64,000 nt of DNA, taken from Blautia sp. Marseille-P3201T (lineage in GTDB: Bacteria; Bacillota; Clostridia; Lachnospirales; Lachnospiraceae). Shown piece by piece: positions 483 through 60,412 of the stretch. How positions within the stretch are numbered: the first letter of the stretch is position 1; each line of letters begins with the position of its first letter. Under the pieces are notes generated by a model. That model made no database searches and was not told where the DNA came from. It saw only the letters and a program-made list of their open reading frames with translations. The DNA lies in contig NZ_LT635470.1 in the NCBI RefSeq assembly GCF_900120295.1, positions 310,001 through 374,000 of the forward strand, in the 5' to 3' direction. Made by a program: the position numbers and the translations under genes.

Positions 483-520
483 ATTGCATCACAATTCTAC
501 TGTGATGCAGTCTTTTTTTG
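483..520 (+). terminator. Intrinsic terminator after the MATE gene
   Basis: GCATCACA (486-493) pairs with TGTGATGC (501-508) around a 7-nt loop, and flanking bases extend the stem. It is followed by TCTTTTTTTG. It ends the MATE transcript. Confidence 0.9.
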
Positions 521-560
521 TTTTATAGGAAATTGCGTCCTATGAAAAAAATGCTCTATC
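521..560. repeat. Dispersed palindromic repeat, copy 1 (ATAGGA..TCCTAT)
   Basis: ATAGGA (525-530) and TCCTAT (538-543) form an inverted repeat around AATTGCG, followed by an A-rich run and ATGCTC. The same core recurs at 5921, 16219, 39830 and 60283, and in degenerate form at 38300, always between genes. Confidence 0.7.
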
Positions 561-5879: not shown

Positions 5880-5925
5880 AAAAATACGGGAAACAGAGAA
5901 GATCTTTGTTTTCCGTATTTTTATT
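5880..5925 (+). terminator. Terminator after the P-loop gene
   Basis: AAAATACGG (5881-5889) pairs with CCGTATTTT (5913-5921) in a long stem running inward through AAACA/TGTTT. T-rich sequence follows and runs directly into a palindromic repeat copy. Confidence 0.8.
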
Positions 5926-5953
5926 TCATAGGAAATTGCGCCCTATGAAATAA
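5921..5953. repeat. Dispersed palindromic repeat, copy 2
   Basis: TTATTTCATAGG (5921-5932) and CCTATGAAATAA (5942-5953) form a perfect 12-bp inverted repeat around AAATTGCGC. This is the best-paired copy of the ATAGGA..TCCTAT core. Confidence 0.8.
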
Positions 5954-5971
5954 ATATTTTTAACATTATTA

Positions 5972-16191: not shown

Positions 16192-16240
16192 GGCTCCCCA
16201 AGGATTACACTGCAACGGATAGGAAATTACGTCCTATTTG
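16192..16240. repeat. Dispersed palindromic repeat, copy 3
   Basis: A CTCC-CAAGGAT module (16193-16218) is joined to ATAGGAAATTACGTCCTAT (16219-16237). Here the CTCC module precedes the ATAGGA palindrome, while at 38300, 39830 and 60283 it follows it. Confidence 0.65.
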
Positions 16241-16302
16241 ACGCTTTTTAAAAGTTGTGTTAGCATAAAAGATACGGAATTTTGAAAGGAAAGAGAGCTT
16301 TC

Positions 16303-38302: not shown

Positions 38303-38372
38303 ATTTCATGGGAAACTGCTTCCTGCGAAATAAGAAATGCTCCGCAAGGATTGCACTGCGGCGGATGGAATT
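38300..38372. repeat. Dispersed palindromic repeat, copy 4
   Basis: CTTATTTC and GAAATAAG flank a degenerate ATGGGAA..TTCCTGC core (38300-38334). The CTCCGCAAGGATTGCACTGCGGCGGA module follows (from about 38340). The flanks stay complementary although the core has drifted. Confidence 0.65.
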
Positions 38373-38376
38373 CTTT

Positions 38377-39642
38377 TTAGACCAATTCTGCAATTCTGGT
38401 GACTCCTACGAAGATTTCCTGAATTTCGTACCAGGTAGAATAATCTATAATTCCTGTGGCTGGAAGGCCGAAAATTTGTTGAAATTTTTTGACTGCGTTT
38501 TGCGTATTTTCTCCAAAAACACCATCTACAGAAATTTTTGGAAGAGCAGGGTATGCATTAGCAATAGCATTAAGTTGTTCCTGTATTTGGCGAACCTTGC
38601 TGCCAGATGAACCAATATCTAAAGGCTGCCCCGGCCATGAGGCGGGAATTCCCGAAATTTCTTCAGCAGTGTTGATGTACATGTTGTTGCCATAGAAGTT
38701 TCGCAAGATTTCAATGGCAGAATAACCCTGATCCCCAAGGTATTTCGAACCCCACTGTGTCATCCAGTTTGGACATTGGACTCTTTGCCCATCACAATAC
38801 TGGGTTAAAATCGGCTGCCGTACACCTGGTCTTGAAAGATAATTATCAAAGAGTTCATCTACGATACGAGAGATACTTTCAAAGATGTTTCGGCCGTGCA
38901 TCCATTTATGGTCAAATGCTGTTGAAGAAGTAATTGTAAAGTCATATCCCTTATTTCTATACCATTCGGTATAAACGCGGTTTAAGGTAAAGGACATAAT
39001 TGCCAGCACATTTGCACGAATAGTATTGTCCGGCCATGTGGCATAGATTTCACTGCTGGCTACATTTTTAATATAGTCTCGATAACGAACATAATAATCC
39101 TTTGCAGTGGAGTCACTGGGAGTGCCATCATGTACAACTACATATTCGGGAATAACTACACGGCTCAGGACAATTTCTCCTGATGTATCCATAGGTTTGA
39201 TTTCATCTTCAGGGATTTTTTCGGGATATTCTCCATACAGTGTATGAGCAGGAATAACAATATCTTCAAAAGTACGTGGACCACTTTGAGGAGATAGAAC
39301 AGCTCTTTGGATTGCGGTGGCATTTGGCAGTATTTCTGCTCCGGATATATCTAAATCTTCAAAGCCTTCTTTAGAAATACGAAAAGTGTATTCTGCATAA
39401 GGTTGATATTCAGAAGGCGCCATACTGTATTCTAAAGGCGGAGCAGGAAGCTGAATTTCCGGTATCATGCCATTGGCATCTGTTTTCACTTCTTCGATAA
39501 TTGAGTCAGGATCTCCGGTATAGGAAATTTGAACAGAAGCATCTTCAACCGGCTGACTGCGAATGGAAGAGAGAACATAAAGCTGTAAATTTCCTTCGTC
39601 CGGGTGATCTGTCTGCATAGATTTTAAAGAGGTTGTATTCAT
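38377..39642 (-). CDS. sleC: SleC-like spore cortex-lytic enzyme / peptidoglycan-binding protein
   Basis: The 421-residue protein has an N-terminal carboxypeptidase-regulatory-like fold (about 10-100) and a central SleC/SpoIID-type region (about 165-325, with IRANVLAIMSFTLNRV). A C-terminal PG_binding_1 domain (about 345-410, with VDGVFGENTQNAVKKFQ) follows. In Clostridium perfringens SleC degrades cortex peptidoglycan during germination. ATG 39642 follows CCGAGG; the longer frame is rejected because it runs into repeats. The partner proteases (Csp) are not here. Its presence suggests a spore former. Confidence 0.8.
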   Translation of the reverse strand: MNTTSLKSMQTDHPDEGNLQLYVLSSIRSQPVEDASVQISYTGDPDSIIEEVKTDANGMIPEIQLPAPPLEYSMAPSEYQPYAEYTFRISKEGFEDLDISGAEILPNATAIQRAVLSPQSGPRTFEDIVIPAHTLYGEYPEKIPEDEIKPMDTSGEIVLSRVVIPEYVVVHDGTPSDSTAKDYYVRYRDYIKNVASSEIYATWPDNTIRANVLAIMSFTLNRVYTEWYRNKGYDFTITSSTAFDHKWMHGRNIFESISRIVDELFDNYLSRPGVRQPILTQYCDGQRVQCPNWMTQWGSKYLGDQGYSAIEILRNFYGNNMYINTAEEISGIPASWPGQPLDIGSSGSKVRQIQEQLNAIANAYPALPKISVDGVFGENTQNAVKKFQQIFGLPATGIIDYSTWYEIQEIFVGVTRIAELV

Positions 39643-39786: not shown

Positions 39787-39829
39787 AAGCTGTCGTAGGG
39801 AAAGAATATCTTTTCTGGGCAGCTTTTTT

Positions 39830-39830
<1 letters not shown>
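39787..39830 (+). terminator. Terminator-like structure in the glpK leader
   Basis: AAGCTGTC pairs with GGCAGCTT, with an inner GAAAGA/TCTTTTC pairing, and a T run follows. It sits between the promoter and the glpK start, so read-through or antitermination is needed. GlpP-type control is an inference from other Firmicutes. Confidence 0.5.
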
Positions 39831-41403
<1,573 letters not shown>

Positions 41404-43630: not shown

Positions 43631-43662
43631 TTCACTTGTCGTTTGAGAGAAGCGACAGGTAA

Positions 43663-43746
43663 GCGGGAGTGCTGGAATTGGCAGACAGGCAAGACTAAGG
43701 ATCTTGTGTCTGTATAGACGTGTGGGTTCAAGTCCCATCTCCCGCA
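43663..43746 (+). tRNA. tRNA-Leu (anticodon AAG), copy 1
   Basis: The acceptor arms GCGGGAG and CTCCCGC pair perfectly. The anticodon stem CAAGA/TCTTG encloses loop CTAAGGA, giving anticodon AAG at 43697-43699. The long variable arm TGTCTGTATAGACG identifies a class II tRNA. CCA is not encoded. A copy identical over the whole gene lies at 45475. Confidence 0.93.
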
Positions 43747-43749
43747 TAG

Positions 43750-43795
43750 AGAAAAGCCGATATTTGTCAGGAAACTGATAGATGTCGGCTTTATT
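43750..43795 (+). terminator. Terminator of the first tRNA-Leu
   Basis: AAAGCCGA pairs with GTCGGCTTT across a branched stem. The homologous terminator at 45565 has different bases but keeps the pairing. Confidence 0.65.
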
Positions 43796-43884
43796 TGTGC
43801 TATAATAGGAAATTCCGACTTTTGTTGGAACAATGAATGAAAATAGCCCACACAAAGGTGGGCATAGGAACAAGATGACGCTCG

Positions 43885-44061
43885 TTAGAAGATATAAAAA
43901 CCTTCTACACCAGCCTCATCGGCAAATAAATCATCTTCGTTTAAAAAGTAATCCATATCCAGAAGCTCCTCCTCGCTCATATTGCGAATGTCCTTAGGAG
44001 TCATTCCTTCTGGTGGATTGTCAATGTATTTTTTGCGTAATTCCTCGATACCTGTTTTCAT
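43885..44061 (-). CDS. 58-residue acidic protein associated with the IS91 element
   Basis: This short gene lies 50 bp after the transposase gene on the same strand. It has a strong RBS (AGGAGG, 7-bp spacing) and a TATAAT just before it. The protein begins MKTGIEELRKKYIDNP and continues with MTPKDIRNMSEEELLDMDYF, then an acidic tail. It is soluble and probably helical, with no known motif. The position suggests a role in transposition or its control. The frame has no defects. Confidence 0.65.
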   Translation of the reverse strand: MKTGIEELRKKYIDNPPEGMTPKDIRNMSEEELLDMDYFLNEDDLFADEAGVEGFYIF

Positions 44062-44111
44062 GGAACCATCCTCCTTTTAGAGGATTATAGCATAGAATGT
44101 AAAAAAAGAAA

Positions 44112-45263
44112 TCATGCAGAAGAACGCTTTCCGAGAAATTTGGACATTGCTTTCTCATAAAGTTCTTCGAGGGATACGCGTTGGTGATTATAATAAAGTT
44201 CCAGGAACTCCATTTTGTGCCTGCAGCCGGGACATTCCAAAGGATCATAGCCGAAGGAAGAAAGAATGGCATTGCGCCACAGGTTGAAGCTTCGGTAAAT
44301 GCGGTGCCTGCTTTTGGGGATAGCCCGGTAGAGTTTTGCATCTGTTTTTCTGTGTCTGGCATATAAGCCGCCATAACGGATCATTTTAAAGTGCTTTTCG
44401 GGGATATGGCGGATAAGCCTTTTTATGAAATCCATGGCAGGAATAGTTTCCTGTATATATTGATCATCCTCATGGCGGTTATAATGAAAAGTCACCATTT
44501 CGCCATCATAGGAGTCAATTCTGGAGACGGCGATGACAGGTCGGCCAAGATACCGGCCAATATAGCGGATGACTGCTTTAGGGTCACAGAGGTTTGGTCT
44601 GGCATAAACATAGAAGCCCTGCTTGTGTTCATCATAACATTTGGCTTTTACTTTTTTAAAAGAAGAACCGAGGAGAGTTTCCATCTCATTGAGGAGAGCG
44701 GTGCGGAAAGCATTCCGAAGAAAGGTGTAGTTAAAATGCTTTACGGGTTTCCAGAGTCCATCATCACTAAGACCGCCTTCGGAAATAAGGCAGTGAATGT
44801 GAGGGTTCCATTTGAGATCCCTGCCAAAGGTATGCAAAACCATGAGAAAGCCGGGGGTAAAATTTTTGGATTGATTGATTTTGAAAAACATACGGGAGAC
44901 GACACTGTTGACGGAATGAAAAAGGCAGTCAAGGAGTGTGCGGTCTTTGAGAAAGAAATCCCGAAGGTTTTTGTCAATGGTAAAAACACAGTGGCGATGG
45001 CTGGACTGTATGAGTTTGAAAGCCATGCTGGTAGAGCGCTCCATGGAATATTTGATGCCGCAGGTAGGGCAAAAGCGGCTGTGACAGCGGAAAGGAACGA
45101 ATTTTAGGTTACCGCAGTGGGTGCAGGCATACATGGCACCGCCGAAGGAAGGATCACCGCAGTGGATCATTTTATCAATGTTTTCCATTTCCGTTTTTCT
45201 GGGATGGAGGGTATATTTAATTTCTTCATAATAGTCGGTAAAAATTTTTTGAAGTATATTCAT
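44112..45263 (-). CDS. tnpA: IS91 family transposase (HUH Y2)
   Basis: This rolling-circle transposase has 383 residues from ATG 45263. The N-terminal zinc-binding domain has CTHCG and CHSRFCPTCG near residues 45-70. The HUH nuclease motif is HIHCLISEGG near residue 160. The paired catalytic Tyr are in RYIGRYLGRP near residue 240, and a C-terminal zinc knuckle CPGC is near 345. The reading frame is intact, so it may be active. The longer frame upstream to 45407 crosses hairpins and is rejected. Confidence 0.88.
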   Translation of the reverse strand: MNILQKIFTDYYEEIKYTLHPRKTEMENIDKMIHCGDPSFGGAMYACTHCGNLKFVPFRCHSRFCPTCGIKYSMERSTSMAFKLIQSSHRHCVFTIDKNLRDFFLKDRTLLDCLFHSVNSVVSRMFFKINQSKNFTPGFLMVLHTFGRDLKWNPHIHCLISEGGLSDDGLWKPVKHFNYTFLRNAFRTALLNEMETLLGSSFKKVKAKCYDEHKQGFYVYARPNLCDPKAVIRYIGRYLGRPVIAVSRIDSYDGEMVTFHYNRHEDDQYIQETIPAMDFIKRLIRHIPEKHFKMIRYGGLYARHRKTDAKLYRAIPKSRHRIYRSFNLWRNAILSSFGYDPLECPGCRHKMEFLELYYNHQRVSLEELYEKAMSKFLGKRSSA

Positions 45264-45414
45264 GAGAGTATTATGACAGATAGGGAAGGAAAAAGAAAGC
45301 CCCAACCCCTCAAAGATTGAGGGGCAGGGGAGTTGAAGTGTCGAAGACACTTTTTTAAGAAAATTCTTAAAAAAAGAGAAAAAGTATAAATTAAAGAAAA
45401 TTTTCAAAAAATAC

Positions 45415-45442: not shown

Positions 45443-45474
45443 ATATGAGTACTTGCGAGATAGGCAAGATGCAG

Positions 45475-45558
45475 GCGGGAGTGCTGGAATTGGCAGACAG
45501 GCAAGACTAAGGATCTTGTGTCTGTATAGACGTGTGGGTTCAAGTCCCATCTCCCGCA
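45475..45558 (+). tRNA. tRNA-Leu (anticodon AAG), copy 2
   Basis: It is identical in sequence to the gene at 43663, with anticodon AAG at 45509-45511 and CCA not encoded. Promoter, leader hairpin and terminator are similar in layout but diverged in sequence. Confidence 0.93.
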
Positions 45559-45562
45559 TAAA

Positions 45563-45610
45563 GGAAAAGTTGGTATTTGTCAAATAATTGATGAATATCA
45601 GCTTTTTTGC
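45563..45610 (+). terminator. Terminator of the second tRNA-Leu
   Basis: AAGTTGGTATT pairs with AATATCAGCTT (two G-U pairs) and is followed by TTTTTT. It is homologous to the terminator at 43750. Confidence 0.75.
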
Positions 45611-53993: not shown

Positions 53994-54350
53994 CGTAACA
54001 AGTAGAATAAATAATCGCGGCTGACAGAACCGAAAGGGGTCAGGTGAGGAAAGTCCGGGCTTCATAGGGCAGGATGCCAGATAACGTCTGGTGGAGGTGA
54101 CTCCAAGGACAGTGCAACAGAAATGTACCGCCGGAATATTCCGGTAAGGGTGGAAGGGCAGTGTAAGAGACTACCGCCTTTCTGGTAACAGAAAGGGCAC
54201 ATGTAAACCCCATCCGAAGCAAGACCGAATAGAAAACCATGTGGCTGCCCGTCACGTTTTCAGGTAGGTCGCTTGAGCCTGCTGGCGACAACAGGACTGG
54301 ATAGATGATTATTCGCGACATAACCCGGCTTATCGTTTTGCTTGTTATGT
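53994..54350 (+). ncRNA. rnpB: RNase P RNA
   Basis: This is the catalytic RNA that matures tRNA 5' ends. The conserved core is clear: GAGGAAAGTCCGGGC near 54048, ACAGAAATGTACCGCC near 54117 and a late helix-P4 partner near 54290-54330. The terminal helix is formed by GTAACAAG at the 5' end and CTTGTTAT at the 3' end, which sets the limits. Ends are good to a few bases. Confidence 0.93.
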
Positions 54351-54744: not shown

Positions 54745-54755
54745 AAATATAAAAT

Positions 54756-54845
54756 GCTCCGCAAGGATGCGCAGCGCGCGGAAATGAAATTATCACTTTG
54801 TGAACCGCGCGCACGCAGAGATTGCACAACAGCACAATCTTTTTT
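54756..54845. repeat. 90-nt structured repeat, copy A (with terminator)
   Basis: It starts GCTCCGCAAGGATGCGC and ends in AGATTG..CAATCTTTTTT. GCGCGCGG and CCGCGCGC form an 8-bp stem. It matches 60320-60409 at 80 of 90 positions without gaps. It is likely the 3' module of the dispersed palindromic family and terminates transcription here. Confidence 0.75.
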
Positions 54846-54859
54846 AATAAAAATATGTT

Positions 54860-60282: not shown

Positions 60283-60412
60283 TTATTCCATAGGAAAGTG
60301 CGTCCTATACAATAAAAACGCTCCGCAAGGATGCGCAGCTCGCGGAAATGAAATTATCACTTTGTGAACCGCTCGCGCGCGGAGATTGTGCTGTTGCACA
60401 ATCTTTTTTATG
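60283..60412. repeat. Full-length dispersed repeat (copy 6) with terminator
   Basis: TTATT..AATAA flanks ATAGGA (60290-60295) and TCCTAT (60303-60308). An AATAAAAAC linker and the 90-nt module (60320-60409) follow. In the module CTCCGC pairs with GCGGAG and inner GCGC/GCGC and GCGG/CCGC stems form. AGATTGTGC pairs with GCACAATCT before TTTTTT. This is the most complete copy. Confidence 0.8.

Follow-up and report, generated by a model that had tools for sequence, protein, structure and literature searches.

What are the short palindromes that recur along this Blautia DNA, why do their two arms change together from copy to copy, and what placed them where they lie? An earlier note, made from the letters of the window (the whole stretch of 64,000 nucleotides analyzed here), had described six copies as a family of dispersed intergenic elements under selection or made by a palindrome-forming process, with covarying arms, a further module on four copies and a possible link to a REP-type (TnpA_REP) or other HUH nuclease gene.

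Copies of the palindrome and pairing of its arms

All six palindromic copies were found in the window, with exact core starts at 525, 5928, 16219, 38308, 39836 and 60290 (0 to 3 nt from the positions first given). A search with the 19-nt core ATAGGAAATTGCGTCCTAT at up to 3 mismatches returned five window matches compared to 0.03 expected in shuffles, the copy at 38308 falling outside the 3-mismatch limit. By the same approach, 52 matches (30 forward and 22 reverse) were detected in the 2.94-Mb genome (G000), and a reversed-pattern control gave no forward and one reverse match. A covariance model built from 51 of the G000 copies, a check that the earlier note had proposed, matched 107 of 299 family genomes at E <= 0.001. 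The same note had held that a search returning only these few copies, or arms without covariation beyond chance, would speak against its reading; 52 copies and covariation were found.

The covariation was confirmed beyond both shuffled and slid controls. Among the 51 G000 copies, 85.4% of cells were paired compared to 79.5 ± 0.7% in shuffles, and 64 cells had changed on both sides compared to 28.3 ± 4.6, with none of 500 shuffles reaching either value; when partners were slid, 47.5 to 53.1% of cells were paired. Within-genome shuffling of the 3' arms gave 904.4 ± 7.5 complementary positions compared to the 980 of 1120 observed, a value reached by none of 2000 shuffles. Between genomes (positions 1 to 5, one copy from each of 24 genomes), 115 of 120 positions were complementary compared to 76.8 ± 4.1, a figure that is inflated because most of these copies had been selected by covariance model R1, whose score favors paired arms. 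Picking by R1 applies to most copies outside G000, G004 and the sister species genome G008, while the G000 copies were chosen by the core alone.

The four bases that adjoin the core (N4 and N4') tended to be typical of their genome and, within an element, complementary (TTTC/GAAA and TTGT/ACAA in G000, TCTC/GAGA in G152, TCGT/ACGA in G238, CTTT/AAAG in G214 and TCGA/TCGA in G157). The copy at 60290 is not a clean case of pairing, as its 5' flank TTATTTATTCC mismatches ACAA. Chimeric arms were observed at L020, L031, L011, L007 and L008 (TTGT with GAAA, TTTC with ACAA, TTGC with ACAA), which suggests that element lineages have recombined, or undergone conversion, within the 19-nt core. The module assigned earlier to four copies proved less general: the exact CTCCGCAAGGAT occurs at 38340, 54757 and 60321 and therefore accompanies two of the six cores, the copy at 54757 being without a recognizable core; a variant lies upstream of the 16219 core and a diverged form at 39836.

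L-numbers denote loci. L012:748, L040:3437 and L005:1591 were dropped before the arm, stem-scan, T-tract and orientation counts, and L041:963 was omitted from the 51-copy alignment (A1) only. L127 and L175 were dropped from the stem scans, within-genome arm shuffles and T-tract counts, and L105 and L120 from the within-genome arm shuffles and the 24-genome pairing count. When copies of other genomes were read, L109 and L125 were skipped and L106, L138, L144, L156, L161 and L165 were unparsed. Palindrome counts per genome over the 299 genomes are limited to about 21 scored candidates each and used stricter filters.

Anatomy of the small elements and their place behind terminators

When G000 copies were set side by side, the order was found to be terminator hairpin, T-tract, one base, N4, ATAGGA-loop-TCCTAT, N4', A-tract, body, and a last hairpin with T-tract. 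The palindrome (H) is the 5' end of an element of about 125 bp that has no transposase gene, whose body begins CTCCGC-AAGGAT and which in complete copies closes with a terminal hairpin and T-tract (ter). The body was recognized in 34 of 51 G000 copies and the ter hairpin with T-tract, by pattern, in 14 of 52, so many copies are incomplete. When only the core was used to orient the 51 copies, the body lay downstream in 34, upstream only in none, and was unrecognized in 17; loop orientation was counted in G000 only, because copies of other genomes were oriented partly by the body. The copies of the window are as follows.

60286..60410, + strand: complete small element of 125 bp (N4, H hairpin, A-tract, structured body, ter), from the side-by-side anatomy, with similar bodies elsewhere in the genome
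60278..60320, + strand: H palindrome (putative ori end) and flanking target arm; core match, R1 model E = 1.3e-8
60384..60410, + strand: ter end, hairpin GATTGTGC-TGTT-GCACAATC and TTTTTTA
38304..38379, + strand: small element whose body is shortened; the orthologous site of G008 lacks it, and the terminator T-tract there is uninterrupted
39824..39866, + strand: H palindrome and a partial body, following an intrinsic terminator; core, R1 model; only a degenerate remnant in G008
5916..5958, + strand: H palindrome lacking a body, following an intrinsic terminator; core, R1 model
513..555, + strand: H palindrome and a degenerate body, following an intrinsic terminator; core, R1 model
16207..16249, + strand: degenerate H, core only with arms lost and a body fragment upstream; degenerate in G008 too
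54753..54846, + strand: small-element body and ter end following a T-tract, the H core having been lost

An RNase P class A RNA gene was noted at 53999-54348, and the coreless element at 54753-54846 lies about 400 bp downstream of it. No Rfam family reached its gathering score on the window elements or on the 12 loci tried (E up to 1); the best matches, nqrA-II (31 of 55 bits) and L20_leader (29.4 of 58.7 bits), were far under it, and identity with a known RNA family was rejected.

Most of the small elements were found in one orientation, just behind the T-tract of intrinsic terminators. In G000, 45 of 52 copies have TTTT in the 12 nt that precede N4, as do 74 of 79 from other genomes; the corresponding count for random positions is 86 of 921. 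The stem at the T-tract reached -10 kcal/mol or better for 42 of 52 and 65 of 79 copies, respectively, compared to 12 of 95 random positions and 27 of 101 other TTTTT sites; this wider scan supersedes an earlier, narrower one (42% and 48% at -8 or better, controls 4 to 5%). The copy at 60290 (L025) has no good terminator stem before it (-1.7 kcal/mol). On the reverse strand, stems of -8 kcal/mol or better were found for 30 of 52 and 56 of 79 copies, and a reading of the hairpin as a reverse-strand terminator is possible if not crisp. Because the element at L099 (1501-1784) follows a T-box leader, the terminator need not end a gene. Another element (L002/L069) lies between a terminator and a gene that was named thiS-like by eye, and its G008 copy puts a second terminator-like hairpin before that gene.

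Comparison with the sister genome and spread among relatives

Fifteen G000 places could be compared in G008, which has 17 core matches and no Y2_Tnp; one was a clean empty site and eleven were shared. The clean empty site corresponds to the copy at 38308: in G008 the terminator T-tract runs straight into the downstream DNA, whereas in G000 the element, ending in its own T-run, stands between the two. L010 and L039 are absent from G008 together with their terminator, and L023 lies in a non-homologous stretch; L005 was not counted, since the downstream half of the apparent pair matches the repeat alone. Two of the eleven shared copies (39836 and L046) persist in G008 only as remnants, and at one site (L025/L063) arms and body differ between the two genomes. 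The shared copies L014, L020, L021 and L031 carry an arm mismatch on one side, and because such mismatches are common among the shared copies, pairing is not strictly kept at each site.

Plasmid and phage collections yielded one Roseburia plasmid match and 16 unannotated 'phage' records from fecal samples, and a pattern scan of viral contigs gave no matches. The plasmid match is a relative of the small elements on the 243-kb plasmid of Roseburia sp. 831b (NZ_CP135163.1:318-446), where it overlaps an annotated hypothetical protein.

An IS91-family element in the window

The window also holds a complete IS91-family element (hereafter IS), one of four copies in G000.

43801..45357, - strand: complete IS91-family element (IS), 1557 bp, boundaries from four genomic copies
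44112..45263, - strand: IS91-family HUH-Y2 transposase, likely ATG start, open frame to 45407; Pfam, NCBIfam, motifs
43885..44061, - strand: open frame of 58 aa within the IS, unmatched in NCBIfam; comparable frames seen by eye in IS of other genera
43801..43835, unstranded: IS ori end TATAATAGGAAATTCCGAC-TTTT-GTTGGAA, adjoining the T-rich tail of the terminator after a tRNA gene
45338..45357, unstranded: IS ter end, GTGTC-GAA-GACAC hairpin and TTTTTTA

The transposase matched the Pfam profiles Y2_Tnp (9.1e-41) and Zn_Tnp_IS91 (6.3e-24) and the NCBIfam profile transpos_IS91 (4.2e-94, 315.5 bits compared to a cut-off of 125), and the motifs NPHIHC (HUH) and YIGRY (Y2) were read in its sequence along with an N-terminal zinc domain. 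A search of solved structures returned no relative of this transposase. By multi-copy comparison, done by eye in G338, G186, G088 and G000, the IS boundaries were sharp and the flanks unrelated; starts in these four genomes were CTTTATAGGAAA, CTTTCTAGGAAA or TATAATAGGAAA, and ends were the hairpin with TTTTTTA or TTTGTTC. Over ten genomes, IS begin ...TAGGAAA and end in hairpin and T-tract in nine, the end not being recognizable in G119. The ends show no visible terminal inverted repeats, and no target duplication was seen outside the T-runs that flank the IS on both sides; ori lies downstream of the transposase gene and ter upstream. The site itself is a tandem duplication of a tRNA gene and its terminator (43645-43795 and 45457-45608): the IS lies between the two tRNA copies, behind the first, and the second is close to an uninterrupted paralogous target. 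A second and better-scoring group of Y2_Tnp proteins (L188-L200, L234 and L235; E to about 1e-68) was observed in the same bacterial family, and the one end compared (G145) was unlike a terminator insertion. With the IS found, a tyrosine-recombinase site of the 13-7-13 type, which had been weighed for the palindrome on sequence looks only, was dropped.

Canonical IS91 elements target the tetranucleotide GAAC/CAAG. The present IS lack such a target; they are flanked by terminator T-tracts, usually with a single additional base, which is in most cases A or G. In ten genomes, 22 of 28 IS sites had a stem of -8 kcal/mol or better before the IS and 24 of 28 had TTTT in the 12 nt before it. The sites missing the -8 kcal/mol rule were L204, L206, L210, L224, L228 and L232, of which L204 sits on the ter end of a small element and L224 on that of another IS; those without TTTT were L207 (on a small-element ter, TTTGTTC), L210, L213 and the window copy (TTTATTTGTGC). 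L213 passed the energy rule, yet lies in coding DNA by eye. Nested insertions were found in several combinations: IS at the T-tract of a small element's ter (L034, L204, L207), small elements at the T-tract of an IS ter (L006, L042/L236) and one IS at the ter of another (L224). Because IS and small elements lie on each other's ter T-tracts, the target site is of the same design as the ter end.

Twenty-nine loci entered the IS site analysis, 28 of them with a recognized ori (none at L222); L203, L205, L212, L214-L217 and L188-L200 were left out. At L203 (G168), several ACTTT-like repeats stand between the terminator and the IS ori, a pattern that looks like repeated copying of the 5' end.

Relation of the small elements to the IS

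The small elements and the IS share the same type of target, terminator T-tracts. At the level of sequence, 11 of 81 small elements of other genomes (G212, G152, G301, G279) carry the IS ter sequence (top match of each element, 81 to 97% over 35 to 57 nt, E 2e-17 to 4e-5), and the remaining 70 gave no match to it at E 1e-3. Among the 54 G000 stretches searched, only L034 matched the IS ter, through a neighboring IS. G000 small elements share only ATAGGAAATT with the IS at the ori end, and the likeness between the ter hairpins is one of layout and does not extend to sequence. A single IS, from G119, carries a full H-type ori, TTTTTTACTTT-ATAGGAAAGTCC-GT-GGACTTTCCTAT-AAAGTGAAAA, in which the T-tract and ACTTT stand with their complements; this sole IS with an H-type palindrome is the one without a recognizable ter, and none of the four G000 IS has the outer palindrome.

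Y2_Tnp was detected in 26 of 107 genomes with at least one palindrome match and in 26 of 192 without (p = 0.025), a weak association, and no association was found at a threshold of at least five or at least ten matches (p = 0.57 and 1.0). Of the 25 palindrome-rich genomes (at least ten matches), 21 are without Y2_Tnp. We read the palindrome genomes that lack Y2_Tnp as holding relics of past activity, or as having used a transposase that was lost or unsampled. Because of this weak association and of the 21 palindrome-rich genomes without Y2_Tnp, mobilization in trans is a step that we infer. The link to an HUH nuclease raised at the outset held in one half: the REP-type enzyme did not stand, there being no Y1_Tnp in G000, whereas the 'other HUH' part was supported, with an IS91-family Y2 transposase in the window that has the end layout and target type of the small elements.

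Alternative explanations

The hairpin might instead serve the host as a functional RNA or as a transcription element, such as one part of a two-way terminator, selected at each gene. Its position directly at terminators fits this, as does a hairpin such as GCTGCGCATCCTTGCGGAGC that is followed by a T-tract on the reverse strand, with a short G+C-rich stem preceding the A-tract on the other strand. G.T mismatches also exceeded A.C mismatches (60 to 29) in the 51-copy G000 alignment, but the two were about even (43 to 37) in a larger set of arms, so there is no clear strand preference, and RNA-level selection was rejected as a reading of an excess that was gone in the larger set. Orthologues were moreover decayed or deleted in G008 (L021, L024, L046 and 39836), neighbors were arbitrary by eye and include the T-box leader at L099, Rfam gave no match for the window elements and 12 loci, and the full-length IS occupies the same type of site; we consider a host element improbable. 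Selection on the structure had been one of the two options of the earlier note, and with several orthologous G008 copies decayed, selection on the hairpin at each site was not supported. Palindromic, dispersed and terminator-associated repeats could also be REP/BIME moved by TnpA_REP (RAYT), whose enzyme is Y1, not Y2, or retroelements moved by the reverse transcriptase of group IIC introns, which prefer sites behind terminators. Both Y1_Tnp and the GIIM domain are absent from G000. Over the 299 genomes neither was associated with at least one palindrome match (Y1 in 68 of 107 palindrome genomes compared to 106 of 192 without, Fisher p = 0.18; p = 0.21 for GIIM), and 7 of the 25 palindrome-rich genomes have neither. 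The REP/RAYT and group II intron links were both rejected, and a REP or group IIC origin is very improbable.

Two further proposals concern the arms and can stand together with the transposon reading. The T-tract is host DNA and the A-tract is part of the element, and yet the two covary (490 of 560 positions complementary compared to 457.5 ± 3.7 in within-genome shuffles, 0 of 2000 reaching the value), which must come from base-paired target choice, from later correction by template switching, or from co-transfer of a few T's. Replication template switching after insertion could perfect palindromes and so make the covariation with no selection on the hairpin, a process described in print in portions of PMC8794818 and PMC8604942. 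In what the latter source sets out, switching also inverts the spacer, yet the body lay downstream in 34 and upstream only in none of the 51 G000 copies, and orthologous pairs of G000 and G008 show mostly one-sided decay, a double change within the core being seen once (L017 and its partner in G008); we hold this origin of the arms to be rather unlikely. Alternatively, the target may be chosen by pairing, the internal A-tract and its neighbor acting as a DNA guide that anneals to the target T-tract. Position 5 covaries as well (83 of 112 compared to 70.9 ± 3.3, again 0 of 2000 within-genome shuffles), matched examples are TTAATTATTGC/GCAATAATTAA (L027) and TTTTCTTATTTC/GAAATAAGAAA (38308), and IS608 recognizes a tetranucleotide target by base pairing, as described in part of PMC5934647. 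Against a guide, several copies mismatch (L142, L148, L157), and IS without the outer palindrome still choose terminators, so pairing is unnecessary for targeting. Target choice by such a guide is a tentative proposal.

Proposed mechanism and significance

Taken together, we consider it likely that the palindromes form the ori end of small, non-autonomous IS91-type transposons (HUH-Y2, rolling-circle), with a target that mimics their own ter and with mobilization presumed to occur in trans. The Y2 transposase would nick the ori end and displace one strand up to the ter hairpin, and the displaced strand would be joined to a target resembling its own ter, namely a terminator hairpin with TTTTTT. 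The small elements would be mobilized in trans by such IS. On this proposal, a host terminator would be accepted as a target because it is hairpin and T-tract, like ter, and since a new copy ends in another such site, arrays would grow at one place. N4 and N4' are placed inside the element because IS copies at different sites of one genome start with the same four bases. They would form an element-borne ori hairpin that stays paired during activity, the copies decaying afterwards; as N4 lies inside the element, its covariation with N4' among genomes would reflect the ori hairpin in active lineages. It is conceivable, if doubtful, that a Lachnospiraceae lineage of the IS91 type recognizes terminators as a structural copy of ter and that its derivatives add an A-tract DNA guide pairing with the T-tract, hence the covariation.

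These findings tie widespread intergenic repeats of Lachnospiraceae to a transposase family and would give IS91-type transposition a target with a clear logic, in which the target resembles the element's own end; the target-site logic of rolling-circle transposition would become directly testable. Such insertion sites rarely break genes, and terminators or hairpins added at 3' ends and in leaders could alter read-through. The family is also a likely counter-example to the inference, made in repeat surveys, that covariation means RNA.

Comparison with known systems

Rolling-circle IS with small non-autonomous derivatives are a known kind. Neither terminator-targeting IS91 elements nor this repeat family was found in the open-access literature, as judged by titles and the starts of abstracts; nor did these mention terminators as the target, a target that resembles ter, or palindromic derivatives throughout the family. 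Group IIC introns are alike in their preference for terminator sites and differ in that G000 has no GIIM domain. We know of no terminator targeting by Helitrons. Helitrons, which are related to IS91, are alike in their rolling-circle layout and in the hairpin of the ter end, the 3' hairpin being the terminator of transposition (sections of PMC4778049), and in having many copies without a transposase gene (a section of PMC4683698); by contrast to the present elements, they are eukaryotic and prefer AT dinucleotides for insertion (sections of PMC4778049). REP/BIME are likewise dispersed palindromes linked to an HUH enzyme (excerpts of PMC2817692 and PMC5714925), but Y1_Tnp is absent from G000. 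BOX, RUP and other Firmicutes repeats are similarly small and interspersed, a likeness by the description in an excerpt of PMC3049150 and not by comparison of sequences. IS91/ISCR is a further counterpart. According to passages of PMC5714925 and PMC6218425, IS91 lacks inverted and direct repeats and moves a single strand, beginning at ori and stopping at ter, as a single-stranded circle that the transposase inserts. The transposase family, HUH and Y2 motifs, distinct ori and ter and lack of visible inverted repeats are the same here. By contrast to IS91/ISCR, the present elements lie behind a terminator hairpin and T-tract and are accompanied by many small derivatives.
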